Below, piece by piece: positions 24,173-63,162 of a DNA stretch of 64,000 bases. Positions within the stretch are counted from its first letter, which is position 1. Each line of letters begins with the position of its first letter. The translations under genes and the position numbers were made by a program. Origin of the DNA: Clytia hemisphaerica (taxonomy: Eukaryota; Cnidaria; Hydrozoa; Leptothecata; Clytiidae); contig CACVBU010001205.1 of NCBI GenBank assembly GCA_902728285.1, forward strand, positions 248,001 through 312,000, written 5' to 3'. The notes under the pieces are model-generated. The model searched no databases and had not been told where the DNA came from. It saw only the letters and a list, made by a program, of their open reading frames with translations.

Positions 24173-24332
24173 TACAGTCAATTCTCTCTAATTCGAACCT
24201 CTACTATTCGAATCTATCTAGAGTTCGACTTAAAATATTTTCCCCTCTGCTAGAAATTAGTATAAAAATACATTCTGTAATTCGAAGAAAATGCTTGGTC
24301 CCTTGTAGACCGAATTAAAGGTAGTCAACTGT
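24173..24332. mobile_element. TTCGAA-family (pogo/Tc1-like) MITE, complete copy
   Basis: TACAGTCAATTCTCTCTAAT at the left end and GAATTAAAGGTAGTCAACTGTA at the right form inverted termini beginning TACAGT, consistent with TA-target (Tc1/mariner/pogo) elements. The element is 160 bp and non-coding. Confidence 0.8.
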
Positions 24333-24856
24333 ATTTCTATGAAGAATGCGCAAGATTTACGCAGATTTATGATGATTTCAAATTAAATAAAAAGAATGGC
24401 AACTTATCTCGTGGTCACCTTTTCAGCCCCAAATATTGAATCTGTCACCCCAAAATAAAAATTTCTCCATCTCTTTTGGATTATTTCTTCTTGAACCTTT
24501 TTCTGATATCAAACATCAGACGCACCAATGTACTCTCTATAGAAAATGAGGAAAATAAATGCAGGTATAAACCTTTGCGAAAGAGAGTTTGGCTCAAGTT
24601 TACCAGAATAGATGAACGTCAAACAAGTGAAGTCATTGAATCGATGTACTTGAGATCAGTCGAATATAAACTTTGTTTGACTGTTTGAATTTGTCATATA
24701 TAATGCTCAGGAGTGTTTTTCTCAGGGAGAAATTATTGAAAAATAATAGATGAAATCAAAGGTGATAGAAAATTATGGTCGTCTGGTATCACCTCCCCCC
24801 CCTCTCATCAACCCGGAAAGGAACTTTTACACTGACTCGTAAAGCCATAAGGTAAC
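24333..24856. other. Intergenic, nothing recognised
   Basis: Short stretch downstream of the SMP/C1 gene's polyadenylation site. No gene is supported. Confidence 0.4.
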
Positions 24857-24862
24857 TTTATT
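24857..24862 (-). promoter_or_regulatory. Polyadenylation signal AATAAA of the SMP/C1 gene
   Basis: A canonical AATAAA on the minus strand, 222 nt beyond the proposed stop codon at 25,084. It supports ending the gene here. Confidence 0.7.
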
Positions 24863-25083
24863 AAAGACTTTTTTTATGATATATAAAGCAGGCGCGCCTC
24901 TATACTGACAAAGCAGAATACACAATAGAATTTCTCAAAATTTGTTGACGCACGGTGCCCAAAGGGGAGCACTTCTTTCTTTTAATTAAAAATGATGCGT
25001 AAGTAAATGGTAGGAGATACGTTAAATGTTGTCCTTTGAAGATTTGATACTTAATACCAGTTTCAAATTCAAACAAAGAAGCC

Positions 25084-28000
25084 TTACATTTCCATATTTG
25101 GTAATGAAGACATTGGACATGTTTCAGCAACTTTGCAATGACATCTCTTGTGGACTATTGTATTGCAATCTATAATGTAAAACAGCAAATGATAAGGAGA
25201 AATGTATCAAAGTGTAGAAAGCGACCGTTGTGCAAAGATATAGCGTTAAAATGACTGTACTTCCCCAAAATTGGGCCTTCGAAATTGGGCTAATTCCAGA
25301 AAAGAATTATACATCCTATGTTGAGGAGGTCTTTTTGGGGAAAGGTATACCCGTCGATTTTTTTTAGATTTCAGGACCTTTTGAATTTTTTTTTCAAACT
25401 CATTTTACTGATCGCCCTGGATTTTCCAGCTCATTTAACTGACCACTATGAATTTCCCACCTCGTTTTACTGACTTCCCTGGACCTCACTCCTCCTTAAT
25501 ATAGGGGTACAGACTTTTCTGGAATAGCCCAATTTAGCAAGGTTTGAGTTAATTTAGGCGAAAAATCAACCCTTACATTTTATTGAAAATTTGTGTCCAA
25601 AAAAATGGTCAGGTTTTCCAAAGATTTACCAAAAGAACTTCGTTTTTCTCACTGTTTTCATCCTTAGAGTGTACTTTCCCTCATTGTTTGCACATTTCGA
25701 GCCTTACAACTACAACAGCAGAAAGAACTTTTACAAACCTTTGCAAGAATATCCTTGTTTACCGAGGCCACCGATCCGTTTCAACGGTAAACTACACACG
25801 GAACAGGATGGCATTCTACAATGGAAAAATATTTACGTGTAAAAAAGAATAAGATTGAAACGTTAAATCCGCCACAAACCTCCAAGAAAATCTGTAGCAT
25901 TAGATTGAAACGATTGAAAGATCTGAGAAAATTTGTTGTATTTGACTTTTATTTTCAGAAAAGTGGACAAAAAAATACTGGACCAATCTGTTAATTTTGA
26001 ATTGATTTGAATAATAAAAGCTGAATGAATATTCTGGTACTCTTTGCCAAACCCTTGTAAAGTGATCATTGCTTTCAGACCAAAGATAGGGTAGGGCGTC
26101 AACAGTCATTTTTGGGGCAAAGTCAAAAAATTCAAGATGTAGTGTTTTTTTATGAAAATTCAACCTATTTTAAGGCATAACAGAGATTTCATTTCCATAA
26201 TGGTGGATGTAAACAAATCCCAGACTCAAATGATTTTGTTTTCCCAGGAGAATTCACAGAATACTATCACTTCAAAGAAATTTGGGTCCATGTATATTGC
26301 CATTTCAGAGCAGTTTTTAGTCAAAAATGGGGTTTTTGCTTGAAATGTTGCAATTTAGCCTGTTTTAGCACATATTTCAATTCCATAATGGGGGATATAC
26401 CCAAATCCTAAACCCAAATGATTTTGATTTTCCTGGAGTACTTCCAGAAGACTATCACTGCAAAAAGATTTTAGGTTCATGCCTATTGCCATTTTTAAGA
26501 TTTTTTTAATATTGCGTTTTAGCAGGAATTTCAATTCCAAAATGGTGGATATACCCAAATCCCAAACCCAGATAATTTTGATTTTCCTGCAGTATTTCCA
26601 GAATACTATCACTGCAAGAAAATTCGGGCCCATGTCTATTGTCATTTTAGAAATTTTTTCAGTTCAAATTTGGGTTTTTGCCTGAAAAATGGCTCTTAGC
26701 AGGGATTTTATTTCCATAATGGCGGACATAGATGCATCCCAGACGCAAATGATTTTGATTTCCCTGGAGTATCTCCAGTATACTATCACTGCAAAAAAAA
26801 ATTCAGACAGCATTTAAACTCAGTTTGTAGAAGCTTGCCTTAAAAAATGCTATTTTTTGAGAAATATGATTTTATTTGCTAAAAAGCGATTTTTGAAGAC
26901 GCCATTTTGATTTTTTGAAAAAAGTGAAAAACTTGAAATTCATTTTGCTTAAAGACTTTATTGAAGACTTCCATCCCTGAAAATTTCAGACATGTGATTT
27001 AATCAGTTTAAAGTTTATGAACTTGCAAAATAAATTGGCCTTAAAAAGCATTTTGCTACCCAAAATTGGCTTAAAACGGCTCGTTTAGGGCTCCAATGGG
27101 CACAATTTTCAACCCAATATGATTATTTTGTTGTTTCTTCATAAAGTTTAGTACAGCAAGTGAAAAAAAATAAGATTTGCAATAGTTTTGACATATTTAC
27201 AGGCCTGAAAAGGCCAGAAAATACCATTTTTCCGAATTTTTACCTGTAGTGCGAATCAAAACCCCCAGGGGGGTTCGGCCAATTTTGAACTTTTGACCTT
27301 AAAAATTGCGCAGAATGCCTCACATTAGGTTAAATTTTCTTAAAAAAGCACTACATCTTGAATTTTCTGACTTTGACATTTGACGCCCCACCCTACCAAA
27401 GATTTAAAACAAAATCCTATCCTTATTTCTAAAGGATAAAAAGTTATGAACGAATGCATACGCTTTTACAGCTCAGCACTATTAAAACGAGAAGAAATTC
27501 TGACTTACGTTCCAGTGAAATGTTTTGCAACGAAGATATGATCATTGTAAACGTGTAATTTCTGTCCTTTAATGGAGTAATTCTCTTTTTTGGCCATTGA
27601 AGGTGGTATACGGTAATATCTATAAACAATGAAAAAAAAAGAAAAAGTTGACTCTCTTTAATTCGATCTTCAAGGGACCAAGAAATTTCTTTATATTTAG
27701 AAAAATTCGAATTATAGAGGTTCGATGAGTCATAGAAAGAGTTGACTGTAAGATGAAAAAGAAAATACAGCTTTGTAAGTCCTTGGATGAGGGTGTGGAT
27801 GGTGCGTATTTAAACTCCCAAAGACGCAGTTAAAATGTTATTTTTTTAAGTTTGATTTACTTTGTTTGATTCACTGATGCCAGTTTAGAAAGATCTGTCA
27901 GTTTTTTTGTGGGACGCATAAAAAGGGACTGAAACGGTATAAATCCGTTGTAGGGTCGTCCCGAAGTAAGAGAAGTCTCGCCACGGTTTATCAATCGTAT

Positions 28001-31000
28001 CCAACCTCGAGAAGACCGTGTAACTAAAAAATATTTCATTGACAGAAGAGAATTGGACTAAATTGGACTTACTTGCAACCCGTCTTCTCTGTGACTTCAA
28101 TCACCAAAGCTGATGAAGTATTCGGAATATATCCAATTGCTGAATTCAGTGCACTCTGGCTGACTGTTCCACCTGAAGTATAAAATCCATAGAAGTAGAC
28201 TTCAGGACGATAACAAAGCAGGAATTCATTCTCTGAAGCTGTTCTGGAGGTCGTAATATAGATCGGAATTCTTATCATATACAAATACAGTTGACGCTCT
28301 CTAGTTCGATCTTCATGAGGAATCAAATTTTCATCGAATGAGGGAAACATATCGAATAATAGTGCGCCGTTTAAGAGAGTTTCTTGTTGATAGTGACTTT
28401 CAATATTATCAAATAACAGAGAGAATATCGAATTATAGAGCGACAACTGTATCCACAAAAGCTACATAGAGATGGATTCGGTTCAAGATTATGTACTACC
28501 CTTGTCGATCGACGGGGGTGCTCCGCTGAGGTTCGAAAAATGGACCCTACGTGGGACTCGAAATTTGCGAAAAAAGTGACCCTGAATGGGACTGAAATTC
28601 CAAAAATTTTTACTTTTTCCCCAAATTTTCCAGAAATAGGCACCCTACGAGGGACTGATTTTTCTATTTTGGTGTTTTTGCGACCCTACCTGGGACTCGT
28701 GGAGGTTAAAAAAGGTACCCTGTCCAGCGGAGCATCCCCGTAACCCATTTTGCCCTAGTACCCCCCCCCCCGGATGTACCAGGATCAATTGTATTCTTTA
28801 ATGGATTAAACTAACATTAGATGAACGCCATGAATGAACGTTATAAGAACGTTGTGTGCCAGCTGGTTTGCGATAAATAACAAAACCAACGATATTTGGA
28901 GTTGAAAAAATCAAATGAACATTAAACAGATGCGATACTTACGCAAAGGCATTGGTGTCTCACTTTGGTTGGACAATGAACCTACAAAATGAAAAGTTAA
29001 AAAAGAAACAAAATAAATAAACAGCAAGCCAACTTCGATGTCAATGATGACTACTACTAGGTACTACAGTGGAGTTCCCGTAACTCGAATACGCACGTCG
29101 AATACGCACGTCGAATACGCACGTCGAATACGCACGTCGAATACGCACGGGGAACACGCACGTTGAATACGCACGTCGAACACGCACGTTGAATACGCAC
29201 GTCGAATACGCACGTTGAACACGCACGTCGAATACGCACGTCGAACACGCACGTTGAATACGCACGTCGAATACGCACGTTGAACACGCACGTCGAATAC
29301 GCACGTCGAACACGCACGGGGAACACAAATTTGTTCGAGTTGAGGTTAAGGTTTATAAGGCATTGTTGACCAAAAAGCCTCGAAAAATTGCTCGAGTTCA
29401 GAAGTAGATATGTCTGTAGCGAAGGTGAGAAATTACAAATTACAAAGTACAAATTCTACGTTCTCTTGACAAATCGGAAATTCTGTTTATAGAATGTTCC
29501 GAATGTAAAAAAAAAATAACGTTTACCTAGCGACTGTGCGTATTCCAGTGTAGGCCGTTCGCCGTGATGAAAAGAGTGCCTCAACAAATTACTTTTCGTT
29601 AATTTACTCGGCTGCCGTAAACTTTCACTTGTCGGATCGTTTCTCTTCAAAATAGGTGTCTTTATTGTTTGAGCTGAGTCTGATGTCGTGTACTTCGGCT
29701 CAATAGCGTCTTGAATTTTCGGGCTATTATTTGAAGATGTAGGGGCGTTATTTTTAGACACCTTTGAACGCCTTGGCGGAGCTGCTGGGGCAGTTTTGTT
29801 AAGCTTCGTTGATTCCACCCCAGACGAGTTTAAGATCTGTTCCAAGCTGTTATGTATAGCCTGGAAACCATTTATTGGTTCCATTGCAGCAGAAAAGGAG
29901 TTCGATTTTGGTTTGATTTCTTTCTGTTGATAATGTTTATCAAAAGTGAGTTCTTCATCAGTGAAAACTCCATTTGGTGAGTTCTGGTGGATATCAGTAG
30001 ATGGTGAAAATGCACTGGTCTGCATTGACAATGGTGTGATCGGTTCAAAAAGAATGGAACTAGTCTCACTCCCATAAATCTCACTTGATGGTCTTTTAGG
30101 TGTACTCAAGCCTGAATCTGCATCTGGTGTTGGTGTGAAACGTCTAGAGGCTAAAGCTGTGTGCGATTTTGCTTGCTCTAGCTCTCGTTCGCGTTGTATG
30201 TATTTTGGAACTGAATCTAGCCTGGAGAGAGATTTACTTTTCTTTTGTTGCGTAGTGATGCGAGGTGTAGAGGCGGACCAGTTTTGAACGAAATAATCAT
30301 CGTCAGACGTTTGAGGGATGTGATTTAGCGAATGTTTTGCTTTGTTTACTTCTTTAACGGATTTGCCTAAAAATTAAGGTAAATATTATCAAAAGTAAAA
30401 GTTAAGTCCTCTTGCTACTATCACAAAATCATCTTTTAATAGTATGGTTTAATTTCAACCCTTCCCGTGCTAATGTCGGGTTTACAGTTGGTGATCCACG
30501 GGTCTGGAGAAATTCAATTGTTAGTAGGTGTGGTAGAGTGAATGAAAATAGAATTTTAAGCCATCAACGAAGAAAGCAGTACCTATTTCCATTATATTTA
30601 CTGTTATAGGGTGTACAGTATATTCGACATCAGAATTTTGTACTTATTTTCCAGGGAATTTAAAAAAAAAATTCCCTATTGTCGCTGTTTTTAGAAATTA
30701 AAAATTGCCTACAGTACATTACAACTTTTGTTATTTCATGCGTCAAATACACCCGACATCGGCAAATGGAGTCACAATAGCGCTTCGTTATTCAAATGTC
30801 ATGATTATTACTTCTCTCATTTTGACCAAAATTCAATCCAACAATCCTTTTCGTCTTAATTCAGAAGTCGTGAAAAAGTTATTACATTTTTTTGTAACTG
30901 AGTGTAACTTGCGTGCAAGCGTAATATAGGCAAAGGGTGATGGGATTCAATTTCAGTCGAACAGAAAAATCAATGTCCATTTTTAGATTCGCCACGGTAT

Positions 31001-34000
31001 GCTATTCTCATGTAGGAAAAACCCGACGACGCCAAAAAATGATGCAAGCATAGAACTTAGTACTAGGCAAAAAGAAAAGGATTCTTATCTATCAGAACGG
31101 AAAGGGTTAATTCATGATATGCACCATTGCAATGTCTTCCACGGACCCAACAGCTAATTGGTTGAAAGTGGCGTATTGACTGATTTTACGTCACTTACAA
31201 CCAATCAGCTATTGGGACCGTGATGTAATGTCAGAAGACATTGCGATTGTGCATATCATGAATACAAGCTTTCTCTGAGTTTAGAAGAACTCAAATTTGA
31301 CTGAAGTAAAATCGATGAAAGAGGGATACTTTTACATTAATCATATGACTTCGGTCTGTGATATCAGCTTTCGATAGCTTTGATAAAAATGAAGCTTTAA
31401 GTTATATAAAAAGCAATTGTGACGGATTATCTTTTAAGGCTGGTTTTTCTTACTTTCAAGATCAGTGTACTCAAACGGCTAAGAAAATGTATTTTCTACT
31501 AGACAAGTGATAATGAAAGACTAAATATAATTTAAAAGATCTTAAAAATATCAGATGTTTTAGAATTTGAAATCTTATTTTCCGGAAAGAAATTAGACTC
31601 TTTAAGTTCTTTCCATTTCTTTAGCCAAAACAAAGATGACAATCGGGTTTCAGTCAAAAGTAGAAGCGTATATAGAATGCATTACAGACAGGGAAAAACA
31701 TTTATAGAAAAGAAAAGCAAAATGACTTACTCCTTATGATAAACTTTGTTGGGTTTTTCGGAACATCAATATGCTTCTATGGAGAAAGAAATTAAAGGAA
31801 AGTAAGAAATGGGCCGTTCCATTTTATATCCATGCAGTTGGGTGGACTAACATTTCCAGAAAACGATCAAAATATCAAAAAAGTGGATTTTTGTCAAATG
31901 TTTGCATTTTTTTACTTTTTCATAGCTTCAGCCAGGTTTCTAGGTCCCCCCAACAAAGTAAGGTCCCCCCAATAATTTAGCTCCCCCCAAAAAATTGCCT
32001 TGTGCTAGGTCCCCTTAAACACTTGGGGAAAAAACAAAAACATTGTTCTCCCGCCCCTGTAGAGAAGTCAATAAAAAATATATGAGAGTACAGTACTGAT
32101 AAATGAAAACTGAATTTTACTTGTATTAATATTTATGTTTACAAATCTTTTGCTTTTTATATTTGATTTAATAGTAAGATAAGAGATCTTTTAAAATTAG
32201 CTGAACAGCCCCCAGAGTCTCAGTCAGATCATCTAGGTCCCCCCCAACAATCTAGGTCCCCCCAAATATTTTGGTAATTTTAGCCCCAAGGCTCTTTTAA
32301 AGGCCAAAATATTTCTTAGCCCCCCCCCCAAAAAATAAGGGGGGGGCTGATGCTATGTTTTTGGCTTAAAATCTCGCTGGAAAGACTCACTTATGAGTTC
32401 CATAAACCATACATTTTATTTTAAAATAGTTTAACAGATTTTTTATTTTGTCAAAAGTTTTTCGCAAGCGTAAACTTTCAGCGAAGAATTCTCTCAAGAA
32501 TTTTCAAAGACATTTACTTTCGCGAAAAGGGATAAAATTCGCGAAAGTTTGTACGCGTAAAGTATGTTATTTCTCATTCCTAAAAAACGATGGTTTTATT
32601 TTTAAAGAAATAATATCAAACTTTTTTAAAAACCGTTTTCGGCAGTGGAAATGTTTCGCTGCCACCACACTACTGATCTCAATGTCAAATCTAAAGGGAC
32701 ATTTTTCTTGCAGTAAATTTGGGAACGACTTTGCTTTAAAGTGATTTTCCGGGGAAAGGTAAAATATCCTGTCATCATTTCATCTTTGATATTTACATTC
32801 TACACAATCATATCATATATAAAAAATTATTTTGGTTAAGATGGTCAAGTCAAACTCTCTATGTGTGGAAGATCAAGAATGATGATAAGATAATAATTGT
32901 CCTTCTGTAAATAAAGAGATTAAGATCGTTTTGTAAATTGATTTTAATGGACTGCTTATAAACCACATTATACAGACAATTTTTTTATAGGCACGTGTTT
33001 TTTTGATAGCAGTATTTTTGCTTGAAATCGAAGAAGGATCCAGGAGGAACGAAAACCAAAAAGGGTATACATCCTAATCTCTCATTTTTTTATAAAGCGA
33101 AAACTGAAGCTGGTTGCAAGCAGACACATCTGTTCTGAAACACTTTAAAATGTTTTCTATAAAAGATGGGTATTCTGTTTTGAAATGCTTATAATAGAAA
33201 ACGGTGTTTCCATCTTAGTATTTTAATTCATTTCTCACGTCTCATATAAGTAGAGAATTATGTTTCTCTATATCCATGTGTGATAATAGTAACAGACAAT
33301 TTCAAACAAGCATTTATAGATTCGATGAACTGTTTTTATAGTTAAACAATAACATTTTACTGACACAAAATGACAAAACAATGAGAAAACATCAATAGTT
33401 GAAAGATTTTCTCATTCTCATATAAGAAGGCTAAATTTACATAATAGGCTTTTACCCCTTTTTCTACTTAGATACATTTGTCAGCTTTTCTGTTGTTTTT
33501 AAAAGTGAAATTTGACAACAAAAATTGAGACTAATACGATTATACAAGACATTCAAACCCTGAACTTTGAAGGTGAAGGATTCATTATTCAAAAGACCGA
33601 ACTAGTAAAAACCTTACAAGGTGCATAAATACAAAGCCCAAATACAGACCTTTTTCGTTTTTTGTTGATTTGGGTGTTCTTCTAAAATTAAATCAGTCAC
33701 TTTCTTTGGTTTCATCAAAACAACATTTAGAGCTTGTGCAATGTAGTTGCAAAGGTCCTAAATAAGAAAAGTTATAAAGGTCTACTGTTGAATAATTTTA
33801 TATGGTTTTGCTTCGGCGATTACTACAACAGAAACTACAGAGGTCTACAGTGGCCTGTGATGATCTATAATAAAGATAAAATAAATATTCAAAATCCAGA
33901 TTTTCATAATTATCCATTTCATTAAATAAGTGTACACTGTGTTGACCTACCTTGTTCTTTCCAGCTACATCCAAAGACAGTTTTATTTCCCTTAGTGCTT

Positions 34001-36343
34001 TTATCTCGACATATCTCAAAGAGGTTTTCCTGCCCACCTCAAGATAAACTGTTGCCTAAATAAAAAAGAAAGTGTTGTTTTTCAATATATAAATTTTAAA
34101 ACTTTATTAATTTAAGTGATCACTTTTTAGAATTTTTTAGAATGCTCTGACTGCTAATAAACTTATTTCAGGTAATAATAAAATACCTTTAAATTCATTG
34201 GTGGTAAAACAAAGTAGGAAATTTCTTTTTGTGAGTTTATGATTTTGAACTTCAAATGCTTGGTTTGGGTCGTCACATCCAAAATCTAAAACCAAAGAAA
34301 GTTAAAGCGCTGGAGAAAAAGAATAACAAAAGCTAATTTTCCTAATAAATTGAACTTTTCTTAAATCTGTGTTCAGGGTTTGAAGATGAAGATTAACATT
34401 GATATTAACTCACAAGTTCATCATCCTTTTGCCAATGTTGTTTTATATTTTCAATCGAACAAGGAACTTCATCACTTCTTTCAACTTTAATGGAGGAAAT
34501 CAATTTCTAAAAGATTGAAGTGTAAAGTTACAGGAAAATTGACTGTCAAATACAATGTGTCAGGTACTGTGACGTAGTGGTCATTAACCTTACTTGCTGC
34601 ACAATCAACTGTGAGGGTAATTTGGTAGTCAGTTCAAGATGCTTGAGGGGCGCTTAATGAAAGATCATCACAGATTGATACATCCTTCTTCTTATTTCGA
34701 TACCCTCCTTTAGAGATAGAAATAATAGGCAGTTAGTGGAAGTACTTCAATCTGTGAAGCGTCTTTATGTGAATCCTCATAACGAAAAAAGTATCTTCTG
34801 AAAATTTCATTCTTCCCCATGAATGCGAAAATGAAAAACAAAGAAGCTTTCATTTTCTCATTGTCTTTTTAATCTGCCATGAAGTGTTATAAAATTAAAC
34901 TACAAAGAGGCTTCATAAAAATCGTGTAGAAAAAAGTTGTTAAAAAGTATGCCATTTTATCTTAACAATTTCGTATACTACGTACGGAGCGCTGACTTTT
35001 AGTTTTATGACTTGTTCTCACTCATTTGGTTTCCGTAATAAAAAGAAAGTCGCTATTCTGAACTTTGAACATGTTTTAAATCAAGGTACTTCCACTAACT
35101 GATAAGAAGGTCCTATCACTGACAGTCAGGCACATCCTGACAAATGAACGGGGTATTTTTCACTTGCGCCGAATACCCAGTTTAATTGAATCGGGTTGGA
35201 AATATTTTGCTTAATTTCAAAGAACTGCATGGATGAAATTTTTTTTCCATGGGTCAATTTTGTCTTCGAAGATTGAAGAAACTTTTAATGAAAAAATAAA
35301 GTTCCCAGTTTTCTTCCTTTTTTCCCTTTTTCAGTTTGAAGTTCATTTTTATTCATTTTCACGCTTTTAGCCTGAGACGTCCTTTCTCATTTACACTGGG
35401 TGACGAATACCCCATACAAATGCTTACCCCGTTCATTTGCCAGGATGTGCCTGACTGACTGATTGAAACTAATTTTCTTTGCTTTTTGATTAAAGAAGAG
35501 GGAAAAATCCCAGTCTGGAAAGAAGAGAATATTTACGCCAGAGATTTCTTGGCGTAGCCTTTGTGTAAGCCTATGAAATCCAAAGTCTGCGCCGGAGATA
35601 TCCAGCGTACATGCCTTACTTTCCAGATTGGGAAAAATCTTGAGTCTATCAGTCATTCTGACCTTCCTATTATTCCTATCTTTAAAGAAGGGTTTTGAAA
35701 TTAGAAGAGGGATGTCCAAATTAGACAAACTTACGGTACATGTCAAGCAGCCACCCAGAAACATCTGAATTCATCCTACCATCTTAAAATCTATGATATT
35801 GCATTATTTTCTTAATATCCAACCACACTGTTTTATTTATTTACACGCAATTCCGTCAGCAAGTTACTTGGAAAAAATACTTGTGCAGAAAATATGAGAT
35901 TCTAAAATTGTATCTAGAGTAGAGCTGCAAGCACAAACATTAGCTCGGGCGTAACATTTCCCTTCTTTCCAGACTGGATGGACCCAATCTCATGGTAGAA
36001 TATCACTACTCAGAAAAAAAATAATTACCTTCCTTCCCACTATTTCAGCTATGTTTTTAAGCTCTTTCTTTAAGTCATGTTCCAAGGAATTCAGCCATCT
36101 ATCCACAATTATACGGATAGAGCTCTTCACGTGTGGAAAACATGCCTTAAGATAGGAGTTCAGAGAGTGATAAATATTCTTTTCTGGTTGACTTTTCTTT
36201 ACATTTTTTTGCTTCTCGCTATCCTCAATAAATTTGGCCTTCGTTTGGATGAGATAAAAACCAAGTAAAAACAGGAAAAAATGAACAATAACAAAGTAAA
36301 ACTTTCCAAACCAGCTTCCACTTGCAGCTTCGTCGTTCGCCAT
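25084..36343 (-). CDS. Membrane-anchored protein with SMP/TULIP-like region and C-terminal C1 domain
   Basis: Twelve exons: 36343-36029, 34506-34414, 34285-34187, 34055-33951, 33757-33650, 31776-31731, 30366-29527, 28981-28943, 28232-28073, 27619-27509, 25815-25739 and 25169-25084. All junctions are GT/AG, the phases join and the CDS is exactly 693 codons. The start is MANDEAASG, with a hydrophobic anchor at about residues 13-33. Residues 75-240, encoded by small phase-0 exons, have the beta-strand pattern of SMP/TULIP lipid-transfer domains as in the C2CD2/TMEM24 and PDZD8 families (RWLNSL, FVLPPMNL, LEVGR). Residues 256-548 are a polar Ser/Pro/Lys linker. Residues 629-682 are a C1 domain: H629, C643, C646, C663, C666, H671, C674 and C682, with LGKQGYSCKDC and VHKRCH. 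The two long spacers (x13 and x16) are slightly stretched. No PDZ is visible. A role in lipid exchange at membrane contacts with diacylglycerol or lipid sensing is inferred. The C1 call is firm; the SMP call is moderate. Transposons fill its introns. Confidence 0.8.
25287..25530. repeat. GGGCTATTCCAG MITE, copy 3
   Basis: GGGCTAATTCCAGAAAAGAA at the left and TTTTCTGGAATAGCCC at the right, with internal TTTTACTGA(C/T)C(G/A)CCCTGGA units. It occupies most of the intron between the two C1-domain exons of the SMP/C1 gene. Confidence 0.8.
26089..27397. mobile_element. 1.3-kb non-autonomous transposon with internal tandem repeats
   Basis: The inverted ends are GGTAGGG...GCGTCAA and TTGACGC...CCCTACC, followed inward by AAAATTCAAGATGTAGTG(T/C)TTTTTT and its mirror. 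The flank AAAGAT occurs on both sides and is a likely 6-bp target duplication. The left half (26,150-26,830) holds four diverged units of about 150-190 bp (TTCCATAATGGNGGA, then GAATACTATCACTGCAA). There is no transposase. It is inserted between exons 10 and 11, within the region encoding the C1 domain. Confidence 0.85.
27646..27750. repeat. TTCGAA-family MITE, short copy
   Basis: AGTTGACTCTCTTTAATTCG at the left and AAAGAGTTGACTGTA at the right, about 105 bp. It lies in an intron of the SMP/C1 gene. Confidence 0.75.
28286..28451. mobile_element. TTCGAA-family MITE, complete copy
   Basis: TACAGTTGACGCTCTCTAGT at the left and ATTATAGAGCGACAACTGTA at the right form 20-bp inverted ends. It is inserted 54 bp upstream (in gene direction) of the exon at 28,232-28,073. 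Confidence 0.8.
28514..28740. repeat. MITE with GGGGNTGCTCCGCTG ends
   Basis: GGGGGTGCTCCGCTGAGG and CAGCGGAGCATCCCCG are inverted. The interior carries repeats of ACCCTAC(G/C)(T/A)GGGACT. It is intronic in the SMP/C1 gene. Confidence 0.75.
28811..28866. repeat. ACGTT palindromic MITE, half copy
   Basis: It contains the right half only, ending AACGTTGTGTGCCAGCTGG. Confidence 0.65.
29086..29330. repeat. 13-bp minisatellite (CGAATACGCACGT)n
   Basis: About 18 tandem copies of a 13-bp unit, with variants CGAACACGCACGT, TGAATACGCACGT and GGGAACACGCACG alternating in higher-order blocks. The flank GTGGAGTTCCCGTAACTCGA resembles an end of the TTCGAA MITE family, so the array may have expanded from such an element. 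It lies in an intron of the SMP/C1 gene. Confidence 0.95.
30771..30925. repeat. Diverged repeat shared with 40,061-40,185
   Basis: The reverse complement of this stretch matches 40,061-40,185 through TAATAACTTT, CACGACTT, GAATTAAGACGAAAAGGATT and AGCGCTATT. It is the only other copy in the window and lies in an intron of the SMP/C1 gene. Confidence 0.7.
31111..31262. repeat. 152-bp palindromic MITE
   Basis: TTCATGATATGCACCATTGC and its reverse complement form the ends, and the palindrome continues to the centre through GGNCCCAATAGCTGATTGGTT-like sequence. It is intronic. Confidence 0.85.
31925..32350. repeat. C-rich degenerate repeat tract
   Basis: Repeated words of the type CTAGGTCCCCCCAA cluster at 31,940-32,015 and 32,230-32,345, ending in a CCCCCCCCC/GGGGGGGG inverted pair. 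It is unlike the AT-rich surroundings and lies in the intron upstream of the 31,776 exon. Confidence 0.7.
32351..33649. other. Intron stretch, nothing recognised
   Basis: This is part of the intron between exons 5 and 6 of the SMP/C1 gene. A 98-codon plus-strand frame at 32,448-32,744 shows no domain, overlaps repetitive TTCGCGAAAG motifs and is not called. Confidence 0.5.
34730..35101. mobile_element. CAGTTAGTGGAAGTAC-family MITE, complete copy
   Basis: CAGTTAGTGGAAGTACTTC and GGTACTTCCACTAACTG are inverted ends, 372 bp apart. It is the reference copy for the truncated one at 14,578-14,890 and lies in intron 1 of the SMP/C1 gene. Confidence 0.85.
35123..35457. mobile_element. MITE with CAGTCAGGCACATCCTG ends
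   Basis: CAGTCAGGCACATCCTGACA and its mirror CAGGATGTGCCTGACTG are the ends, with AAATGAACGGGGTA continuing inward on both sides. It is 335 bp and lies 21 bp from the neighbouring 34,730-35,101 element in the same intron. Confidence 0.85.
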
Positions 36344-36774
36344 GTTGGATTCTTTTCAAAATCATAACAAAACCCGATTATAGTGATCCGTAGTATCGGA
36401 TTCTAAGAATTTCAATGAAATCGAGAAACTTCTTTCCCCGATTCGGGTTATTATTTACATTTTTAAAAGTCGTTTGTGAAGCAATCCCCGCGCCAAATTT
36501 TTCTTGACATTTTTATTGGACCTTGTGGTGGTGTTAGCAGTGTGTGTAGGGCACTTTATAGCAATAAATTTTATGACTTTTCAGAGGGTCAGGATTGTTG
36601 CTGTTATTGATTTATTTATCCTTTTAGGTTTTCACTTATAGCTTTTGACTCAAAAAGAAAAGAAATATAAATTAACAAAGTAAATGTTGTGTTTTTTTGT
36701 TCGTGCACACACTTACTTTGTATGCATGGGAAATTATTACATGATTGTCAAGTCTAAAAAACATTCATTTTGTC
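36344..36774. promoter_or_regulatory. Shared divergent promoter region
   Basis: Only 431 bp separate the start codons of the minus-strand SMP/C1 gene and the plus-strand GRXCR-like gene. The region is more GC-containing than its surroundings and has GCGCCAAA (36,490-36,497), the reverse complement of an E2F-type TTTGGCGC core. No TATA box is placed where I would expect one. Bidirectional use is inferred from geometry alone. Confidence 0.5.
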
Positions 36775-37587
36775 ATGAGCAAGTATCAATCATCTTATAA
36801 CATTGGCAACCGTAATGACAGATCTAATGATAAAAAGGAACTGGTATTGGCGACAAAGATAAATATCATAATATCTGATCACGATTTTGAGAATAATGAG
36901 GAGAGGATTGTATTTAATGAAATTATAAAATTGCAAAATGAAGAGGAAGCAAGTCCAAAAGAAATCATAACTGCATTAGGATCAGTTCGAGGAATCAAAG
37001 ATAAGGTTAGACTGAGGATCGAACAATTTTTGAATGGCAAGAAAAATGAAATTGGTAAAGAAGAAAAAGACACTAATAAAGACCAAGTAGGAAACTTATT
37101 AACCAGCTTGAACAACAAGAGTAATAAAATTATTATATACACAACAAGTTTAGGGATTATTCGGAAGACGAAAGGAGATTGCCTTTATCTTATGAATGTT
37201 TTTAGAAGTATGATGCTGGAAACAGAAGAAAGGGATATTGTTAGTAAATATTATCATGATGAGTTCAAAAAATTATTTCCCAATTCTTCACTGCCACAGG
37301 TTGTTATTAACAGTTTTCCAGTTGGTGGCCGTAAAGAAATTGAAAATCTTATTGAAACAGGAGAAATCAACCTTCTTACAAAGAACATTGAAAAAGTTCA
37401 ATATTCTTCTATAAAATGTTTGAAATGTAATGGGTACGGATATCTTCCCTGCCCAATGTGTCTTGGTAGTTGTCGGTCAAGAATTATACGTATTGGGAAA
37501 TCAAGAGAAGTTAATAATTTAAAATGTACTCAATGTAAAGAAGGTATGGTAAGGTGTATGGATTGTATTAACATGATCAGCTACTAG
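36775..37587 (+). CDS. GRXCR-like glutaredoxin-domain cysteine-rich protein
   Basis: A single open exon of 270 codons. I chose the ATG at 36,775 (MSKYQSSYNI); the frame is open ten codons further upstream but has no ATG there. Residues 118-205 are a glutaredoxin-like fold (IIIYTTS, the cis-Pro loop SSLPQVVI, GGRKEIENLIETGEINLL, IEKVQ). Residues 215-264 hold four CxxC pairs (C215/C218, C226/C229, C251/C254, C261/C264) forming two DnaJ-like zinc knuckles. This order and spacing is that of vertebrate GRXCR1/GRXCR2, proteins of sensory-hair stereocilia that act in actin-bundle organisation. The position equivalent to the N-terminal active-site Cys is Ser here (TTSLG), so classical redox activity is unlikely. 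About 110 N-terminal residues are polar and charged. The lack of introns could mean a retrogene or lineage-specific intron loss. Confidence 0.9.
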   Translation: MSKYQSSYNIGNRNDRSNDKKELVLATKINIIISDHDFENNEERIVFNEIIKLQNEEEASPKEIITALGSVRGIKDKVRLRIEQFLNGKKNEIGKEEKDTNKDQVGNLLTSLNNKSNKIIIYTTSLGIIRKTKGDCLYLMNVFRSMMLETEERDIVSKYYHDEFKKLFPNSSLPQVVINSFPVGGRKEIENLIETGEINLLTKNIEKVQYSSIKCLKCNGYGYLPCPMCLGSCRSRIIRIGKSREVNNLKCTQCKEGMVRCMDCINMISY

Positions 37588-40185: not shown

Positions 40186-40322
40186 TTCTCGGTTTTAATA
40201 AATTCCATTGTTCAATCCATCATCAAAAGTGAAATGAATAAAATACCATCTGATAGAAATGCAATAGAATTTAGAGCTAAGGCGTTTCATACGTATTCCA
40301 ATGTGACAACTGTCAAGGTAGG

Positions 40323-41756
40323 ATGTTGAAGTTAATTGTAGCTTTTTGGATTTTAAGTATCGTGCAAGCTGATTTCGTTAACACAGCTAACAAGGAAAAT
40401 GATCCGCTTTTTATTGCTAACTTCTTCCGAAAAAACAAGAAGCCTGTCTACCCTGAGGTTCCTTATGCTGGCAGTGATGATAGGAAAATCAATCTCATTA
40501 ATCTAGCCAAAATCAAGGGCTCTTATTATTTACATGAGATTATGAAAGAAAGTGGCTTGGGTGTTTACAAATTGAGACTGTTTGAAGACCGTGTTATTCT
40601 CGCAGATCCTATAGCTATCCATGTTATATATAATCCAAAATTGGTTGAAAAATCAAAAGACTTTGGTCTTGCTACTGTAAATGGTCTCAATATGAGAGGA
40701 TATCTTCCATCAGCTTCTGTTAATGGAATTAAAAAGATCAGGAAGAAGTTAGGGATGCTGAGGATTTTGAAATCGGCTGAGAAAAAATATGGTATTGAAG
40801 GTTTGTTTAAGATTCTAAAGAAACATTGGGACTTTGTTCTTCCTCTTATTAAGAACAACCAAACGAACGTTGATGATCTGATCCATGTGATAACAGTACG
40901 TACATTGACTGAATATTTCTTTGATAAACCTTTTGATTTGGATCTCAAAGTATACGTGATTTGGTTTTTAAGAGGATTAACACCCAAAAATGATCCAAAC
41001 CAAAAACTTGATGATCTTGGAAAAAAAGTGACTGAACAAATGTATTCTTACATTGACAGTACACCTTGGGCAAAAAATCGTTTACCCAGACTTTTAAGGT
41101 GGGACAAAAGGAAAAACAGAGAAACATTAAAAAGTGAAGCATTATTTTTCGCTTTCATTTTTTCTGCTTTTGGATTAAGAAGTGCTATAGCTTCGACAGT
41201 TCCTCTTTACTTAAACCTGGATAAAGCAACAAAGTCAATTATACTAAAGGAAGTCAACACTTTCCATGAAGCTAATGGTAAATCTATGGACGAAAAGTTG
41301 GAAGATTTTTTCATCACTGATCGCTTTGTTACTGAGGTGTTCCGCTTTTTACCCCCTGTTACTCAAGTCTTTGGTCGAGCTCGCAAAGATTTCACATTAG
41401 ATTCCTTGCAAGGAAGATACACTGTGAAAAAAGGAACATACCTGACCGGTTATCCATACGGTGCACAGAGAGATCCGTATACTTTCCGTTTACCTAATTT
41501 ATTCACCACCACTGGTGACCAGTCCCAAGTCAAAGAGAATTTCTTCGCTTTTGGGGGCCCTTACTACCAGAAAGCACGTGTTCACAACCGAAAATGTTTG
41601 GGTCAAGAAATCTCTTTGAATATGGCAAAAATGTTTGTTGCATTGTTCGCAAGGTGTGACATTGAAGCTGTTTCTAGTTTAAAATTCACCGAATCTAATC
41701 CACAACGAGTCATTGCTAGTGATGAACCGTTAAAAGTTAATAAATTTAAATGCTAA
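40323..41756 (+). CDS. CYP74-clan cytochrome P450-like oxylipin enzyme
   Basis: One intronless frame of 477 codons from ATG to TAA. Diagnostic C-terminal features are the ExxR motif E338-V-F-R341 in FVTEVFRFLPPVTQVFG, then ARKDFTLDS, VKKGTYLTGY and QRDP, and the heme-thiolate loop HNRKCLGQE with C425. The long GGPYYQKARVHNRKC stretch before the cysteine and these adjoining motifs are those of the CYP74 clan (allene oxide synthase, hydroperoxide lyase, epoxyalcohol synthase), which use fatty-acid hydroperoxides rather than O2 and NADPH. CYP74-like enzymes are known in some marine invertebrates. The I-helix equivalent is IFSAFGLRSA (279-288). Plant enzymes have Asn where S281 stands, and that residue steers the reaction, so the product cannot be assigned. 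The first 16 residues are hydrophobic like a signal peptide or ER signal, although plant CYP74s lack a membrane anchor. Reaction and substrate are inferred. Confidence 0.9.
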   Translation: MLKLIVAFWILSIVQADFVNTANKENDPLFIANFFRKNKKPVYPEVPYAGSDDRKINLINLAKIKGSYYLHEIMKESGLGVYKLRLFEDRVILADPIAIHVIYNPKLVEKSKDFGLATVNGLNMRGYLPSASVNGIKKIRKKLGMLRILKSAEKKYGIEGLFKILKKHWDFVLPLIKNNQTNVDDLIHVITVRTLTEYFFDKPFDLDLKVYVIWFLRGLTPKNDPNQKLDDLGKKVTEQMYSYIDSTPWAKNRLPRLLRWDKRKNRETLKSEALFFAFIFSAFGLRSAIASTVPLYLNLDKATKSIILKEVNTFHEANGKSMDEKLEDFFITDRFVTEVFRFLPPVTQVFGRARKDFTLDSLQGRYTVKKGTYLTGYPYGAQRDPYTFRLPNLFTTTGDQSQVKENFFAFGGPYYQKARVHNRKCLGQEISLNMAKMFVALFARCDIEAVSSLKFTESNPQRVIASDEPLKVNKFKC

Positions 41757-62758: not shown

Positions 62759-63076
62759 TTACATTTTCTCCATGGTTAGATGATCAAACTGGTAGCCACC
62801 AAGTCCAGTACCACAACGTTTCAAATTCGTTATCAAGTGACCAAAAGTATTGATGCATTCCACAACAGAGTCTATATGACCATCTAAGAAGTGTTCTAGA
62901 TGAGCATCTTTATTTGCGTCTGCTGTAGATTTCAATGCGATTAGATGTGCATTTATTCTCTTTTCAATTTCAAGTGATTCTTGAAGGGCGTCATCGGGCG
63001 TTTTCCATTCAACTGGTGGCGTACTTATGTCTTGGAAACATACACGCCCTCCACGCTTGTTTTGATACTTTAAAAA
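62759..63076 (-). CDS. Ferritin, C-terminal exon only
   Basis: One exon of 105 codons plus stop, entered through an AG acceptor in phase 0; the rest of the gene lies to the right of the window. FLKYQNKRGGRVCFQDIS is the hallmark end of ferritin helix B and the start of the BC loop, followed by LEIEKRINAHLIALK (helix C), HITNLKR-like LITNLKRCGTGLGGYQFD and LTMEKM at the C-terminus. Ferritins store iron in 24-mers. The helix-C Glu of the ferroxidase site (LEIEK) is present. Helix D reads FLDGHIDSVVECI, one residue shorter than usual and without the conserved Gln of the (N/T)EQV motif, so ferroxidase activity may be reduced. The E62/H65-type residues are outside the window. Confidence 0.9.
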   Translation of the reverse strand, partial: FLKYQNKRGGRVCFQDISTPPVEWKTPDDALQESLEIEKRINAHLIALKSTADANKDAHLEHFLDGHIDSVVECINTFGHLITNLKRCGTGLGGYQFDHLTMEKM

Positions 63077-63162
63077 CTGAAAGAAAGATCTTTTTAAGGG
63101 ATTAAGACTAGGCTATGGCTGTCAACTAGATTTGATTTGTTCATGTGGTCAACAAAAGATTA

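Follow-up and report, generated by a model that had tools for sequence, protein, structure and literature searches.

A gene on the minus strand of the Clytia hemisphaerica DNA analysed here (the window, a stretch of 64 kb to which all coordinates refer unless a contig is named) raises the question of whether its protein joins an N-terminal lipid-transfer domain of the SMP (TULIP) kind to a C-terminal C1 domain without a PDZ domain, and whether such a combination of parts would be new among animal proteins.

Structure and coding support of the gene

Twelve minus-strand exons could be joined into one open frame of 672 residues, running from an ATG at 36343 to a stop codon that ends at 25084; each of the 11 introns begins with GT and ends with AG, and the intron phases are consistent (0,0,0,0,0,1,1,1,2,2,1). 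The exons are as follows.

36029..36343, minus strand: exon 1, carrying the start codon, the N-terminal membrane helix (peak residues 15-33) and the beginning of the SMP-like region; donor gtaatt
34414..34506, minus strand: exon 2, phase 0, SMP-like region
34187..34285, minus strand: exon 3, phase 0, SMP-like region
33951..34055, minus strand: exon 4, phase 0, SMP-like region
33650..33757, minus strand: exon 5, phase 0, end of the SMP-like region
31731..31776, minus strand: exon 6, 46 nt, beginning of the linker
29527..30366, minus strand: exon 7, 840 nt, polar linker rich in Ser/Thr/Pro
28943..28981, minus strand: exon 8, 39 nt, linker, with the weakest coding signal of all exons
28073..28172, minus strand: exon 9, preceding the C1 domain, ranked first among 115 phase-fitting candidates
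27509..27619, minus strand: exon 10, beginning of the C1 domain, including the first His
25739..25815, minus strand: exon 11, middle of the C1 domain, with a weak codon signal
25084..25169, minus strand: exon 12, end of the C1 domain and stop codon

The ranking of exon 9 within its gap was made by splice-site score, and exon 10 was picked for supplying the first C1 histidine and so completing the C1 domain; because both exons were chosen in part for their fit, the phase match at exons 9-10 is partly by construction. Exons 10-12 are supported independently because they jointly encode a complete C1 domain. The summed splice-site score was at least 3.7 for each of exons 2-11 of the gene model. 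Codon-usage scores, which were trained on 748 codons of two neighbouring long frames, exceeded the mean of the intron null in all 12 exons. The fraction of the null reaching the codon score (with stops permitted in the null stretches for exons 1 and 7) was at most 0.02 in six of the 12 exons and at most 0.10 in ten of them, and exons 8 (0.18) and 11 (0.147) were indistinguishable from the intron null by this score. Downstream of exon 12, an AATAAA is present at 24862, one of 16 on the minus strand within 24300-36400. When the whole protein was searched against the genome (417,433,876 bases in 951 contigs), 11 of the 12 matches fell on exons of the C1 gene itself, with exon 8 absent from the matches and exon 6 weak (E 0.09), and the twelfth, on a different contig, was no better than chance (E 0.76); among the best candidates scored in this search there was no further copy of the gene.

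The C1-bearing gene is real, and its outline had been read correctly in the first-pass annotation. Twelve exons, the number put forward there, give one frame with GT-AG introns and agreeing phases, the end points are identical to the base, and the small phase-0 exons reappear as exons 2-5 (93-108 nt, all phase 0). The N-terminal anchor, the long polar linker and the complete C1 zinc motif at the extreme C-terminus that it had named are likewise borne out by the measurements given below. Its protein of 692 residues is indeed a single spliced frame with the same ends, but the length is 672 residues in the present model.

Neighboring frames and repeats

Several other features were observed within the window, three of them in introns of the C1 gene.

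36745-37584, plus strand: single long frame with resemblance to GRXCR1/2; its Pfam matches, GRXCR1-2_C (E 7e-4) and glutaredoxin (E 0.09), do not reach the cut-off
40281-41753, plus strand: single open frame of 491 residues, of the cytochrome P450 kind (PF00067, E 5e-7)
62762-63112, minus strand: ferritin-like exon (PF00210, E 1.5e-12)
31100-31273, intron 6: 40-base inverted repeat, 85% complementary, with arms 94 bases apart, resembling a small mobile element
29085-29318, intron 7: 13-base minisatellite of 18 copies, which produces long open stretches in each of the three minus-strand reading frames
26362-26659, intron 10: 154-base tandem repeat of about two copies

The GRXCR1/2-like frame is arranged head-to-head with the C1 gene, with about 430 bases between the start codons, and the P450 frame is reminiscent of the CYP74/allene oxide synthase kind, to which it may belong. 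Searches of the 64-kb window for RNA families gave no matches, and a tRNA scan found none.

The C1 domain, the N-terminal anchor and the linker

The C1 domain matches PF00130 with 37.6 bits in the whole protein (cut-off 26.5) and with 41.4 bits when the 123-residue tail is taken alone. Its zinc motif is complete (residues 609-662, H-x13-C-x2-C-x16-C-x2-C-x4-H-x2-C-x7-C), and the domain ends ten residues short of the C-terminus of the protein. C1 domains usually have loop spacings of x12 and x13-14; the spacings in the Clytia C1 are x13 and x16, both longer than usual, and diacylglycerol binding should therefore not be assumed. The closest PDB sequences are the C1 domains of protein kinase C iota (E 1.3e-9) and protein kinase C delta (E 3.9e-9), which are alike in sequence, whereas the Clytia protein has no kinase domain by Pfam and has longer C1 loops. 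A scan of viral contigs found no relatives of the C1 tail.

At the N-terminus, hydrophobicity is maximal in a 19-residue window starting at residue 15 (Kyte-Doolittle 2.09), with a net charge of -2 before this window and +3 after it. According to the positive-inside rule, the side of the membrane relates to the flanking positive charge, and the charge of +3 after the helix would therefore place the remainder of the protein in the cytosol; we infer that the anchoring membrane is the ER. Residues ~56-235 (about 180 residues) are encoded by the end of exon 1 and the four small phase-0 exons. In the linker (residues 241-548), Ser makes up 15% of the residues, Thr 8% and Pro 9%, and Cys is absent.

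Search for C2 and PDZ domains

Neither a C2 nor a PDZ domain was detected in the protein by Pfam, and we examined whether exons encoding them might be hidden in the introns. Pfam searches of the read-through frames of 36028-34506, 33649-30366 and 29526-27000 found no C2 or PDZ domain, the only rows being DUF3796 (E 0.56) and OCRE (E 2). This search, which covered introns 1 and 5-9 and the beginning of intron 10 (down to 27000), responds poorly to short exons: exon 10, although within its range, was not recognised as C1. A rescan of all 11 introns by splice-site score, using thresholds set after the 11 accepted acceptors and 11 donors had been seen to pass, yielded a single candidate in intron 5, all phases counted, and nothing in intron 6. 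Phase-keeping candidates numbered three in total: one in intron 1 (29 aa) with its 3' end inside an inverted-repeat arm, and two overlapping ones of 6 and 22 aa in intron 10. A scan of intron 5 free of thresholds gave 29 phase-keeping candidates, with a best summed score of 0.3. For comparison, a C2 domain comprises about 100 residues. Hidden C2 or PDZ exons were thus rejected, as neither search found any within a sensitivity that is limited for both domains. Judging from sequence, a C2 domain is apparently absent, and odd splice sites or an assembly gap might hide one.

Relationship to PDZD8

PDZD8 is described as having an ER anchor, an SMP domain and a C1 domain, the last of which binds phosphatidylserine and PI4P and is reported to be necessary for tethering (PMC7486383). 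The Clytia protein would have in common with it the ER anchor, which is putative here, a region in the SMP position, and the C1 domain, but no PDZ domain was found in it. A separate PDZD8 orthologue was found on another contig (C12), with four matches to a human PDZD8 sequence (best E 9.4e-16). Pieces of SMP, C2-like, PDZ and C1 domains lie there in order (C12:1442000-1451900), with identities to this human sequence of 41-60% for SMP, 49% for PDZ and 38-40% for two weaker C1 pieces (E 4.6e-4 and 0.003). The protein of the C1 gene showed no meaningful match to this locus (best E 4.9). Because the same genome carries its own PDZD8 orthologue elsewhere, the C1 gene is not PDZD8, and this identity was rejected.

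Is the N-terminal region an SMP domain?

No match to SMP was found by Pfam in the whole protein, and three N-terminal segments gave no Pfam match of any kind at E up to 10, in a search whose HMMER filters drop many weak matches. Local alignments (BLOSUM62, 1000 shuffles) to SMP sequences of human TMEM24, E-Syt2 and PDZD8 had z values of 1.55, 0.46 and -0.20, respectively; the best of these was equalled by 94 of the 1000 shuffles, and against E-Syt2 the reversed sequence outscored the real one (36 vs 32). BLASTP against human TMEM24 returned nothing. When hhalign was used against the same three SMP sequences singly, 15, 12 and 43 of 60 shuffles were as good as the real sequence. Against a profile built from five SMP domains, the protein scored 13.05 in local mode, a value that 45 of 150 shuffles reached; in global mode, 148 of the 150 shuffles equalled the real sequence. 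The best local profile alignment, itself non-significant, falls in the register to be expected (P-x-I-x-x-[IV]-K ... LD). The N-terminal 256 residues, searched against PDB sequences, returned just two rows, both at chance level (UPF2, E 0.21, and a death-associated-like protein, E 0.76).

Controls in the same local profile test limit what these results imply. PDZD8 scored 29.9, but human TMEM24 scored only 11.8, although Pfam identifies it as a genuine SMP protein (PF18696, E 3.9e-53). The profile test is thus blind to SMP domains of the TMEM24 type, so that its failure does not refute an SMP domain in the Clytia protein, and the profile negatives are weak because human TMEM24 is missed as well. 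What the profile result does argue against is an SMP domain of the PDZD8 type. PF18696 (SMP_C2CD2L) had no match in the protein and none in the genome, the empty genome result being no proof of absence, and searches with human TMEM24 and PF18696, which had no positive control, gave no match at the C1 gene or elsewhere in the genome. Being uncontrolled and silent at the C1 gene too, these genome searches neither support nor exclude the possibility that the gene fills the place of TMEM24. An SMP/TULIP identity of the N-terminal region is plausible; the earlier label of this region as lipid-transfer-like is an interpretation rather than an observation.

Comparison with known SMP proteins

Four SMP proteins, each with an N-terminal ER anchor, are described in C. 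elegans: PDZD-8 with C1 and PDZ domains, TEX-2 with a PH domain, ESYT-2 with C2 domains, and TMEM-24 (R11G1.6), which has both a C2 and a C1 domain and for which no PDZ is listed in that account (PMC8523718). In the literature consulted, this account was the one found to assign a C1 domain to an SMP protein other than PDZD8. The Clytia protein has the same order of anchor, region in SMP position (a putative SMP domain here) and C1 domain as the worm TMEM-24, also without PDZ, but the worm protein has a C2 domain and none was found in Clytia, the two being compared by description and not by alignment. Human TMEM24 and C2CD2 are listed with SMP and C2 domains and without C1 (PMC9692390), and TMEM24 tethers through a polybasic tail together with a beta-sheet in its disordered region (PMC11334333). 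With human TMEM24/C2CD2L and C2CD2 the Clytia protein shares an N-terminal helix, putatively in the ER here, a region in SMP position and a long disordered C-terminal part (for TMEM24, PMC11334333). However, the human proteins have a C2 and no listed C1, TMEM24 has its polybasic tail, and the human TMEM24 SMP sequence is not significantly similar.

Two statements of the first-pass annotation need revision in the light of these descriptions. That TMEM24/C2CD2 proteins have no C1 agrees with the listing of the two human proteins (PMC9692390), but not with C. elegans TMEM-24, which has one (PMC8523718). The view that SMP with C1 and without PDZ is little described is contradicted by the same worm protein, and the claim of an undescribed architecture fails because TMEM-24 has been published with SMP, C2 and C1 domains (PMC8523718). 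Since no C2 domain was found, we do not count the Clytia protein as a TMEM24/C2CD2 member in the strict sense; it is likely a TMEM24-like protein that apparently lacks C2 and whose C1 loops are unusual.

Proposed function and alternative explanations

Our preferred reading, which we hold to be probable though far from certain, is that the product of the gene is a lipid-transfer protein of the SMP kind, TMEM24-like and anchored in the ER, whose C1 domain docks on a partner membrane. The N-terminal helix would anchor the protein in the ER, leaving the remainder cytosolic, and residues ~56-235 would form an SMP (TULIP) tube carrying a lipid. The flexible linker may allow the C1 domain, by analogy the obvious candidate for the tether in the Clytia protein, to reach the partner membrane, most likely the plasma membrane, and binding of diacylglycerol or an acidic lipid by C1 would bring the tube within reach. 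Such a protein would work like C. elegans TMEM-24, apparently minus its C2 domain.

It is also conceivable that the N-terminal fold is something other than SMP/TULIP and that the protein is a membrane-anchored C1 protein, that is, a tethered sensor of diacylglycerol or acidic lipid and no lipid carrier, as the lack of an SMP signal from any sequence method used would suggest. We regard this as unlikely, though by no means negligible, considering that the layout is that of the published TMEM-24 except for C2 (PMC8523718) and that a divergent TMEM24-type SMP would escape a profile that finds PDZD8 and misses human TMEM24. A wrong joining of two genes, one for an anchored protein (exons 1 to 7 or 8) and another for a C1 protein (exons 9-12), appears improbable. 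In its favour, the codon signal of exons 8 and 11 is unclear, intron 10 extends over 1693 nt and contains tandem repeats, and fit played a part in the choice of exons 9 and 10; against it, a single frame runs through the 12 exons with GT-AG introns, exon 9 comes first in its gap by splice-site score, and the order of parts is as described for C. elegans TMEM-24 (PMC8523718). That the gene is a degenerate PDZD8 having lost its PDZ domain could be proposed from the presence of SMP and C1 in PDZD8 (PMC7486383), but the orthologue elsewhere in the genome and the lack of a meaningful match to that locus largely refute this idea, which we consider very improbable.

If the N-terminal region of this TMEM24-like protein does have the SMP fold, it would be the second animal protein with SMP and C1 and without PDZ, after the C. 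elegans protein, and would indicate that a TMEM24-type carrier can dispense with C2. It would also offer a simple natural construct for testing C1-only gating of lipid transfer at membrane contacts. A more tentative suggestion, possible but on balance doubtful, is that the TMEM24 family of animals descends from a form combining SMP with C1, and that vertebrates then lost C1, the Clytia lineage C2. Were this so, the Clytia protein would be a minimal lipid shuttle in which C1, reading diacylglycerol or an acidic lipid, is the sole docking part, and lipid transfer would be coupled to phospholipase C signalling.
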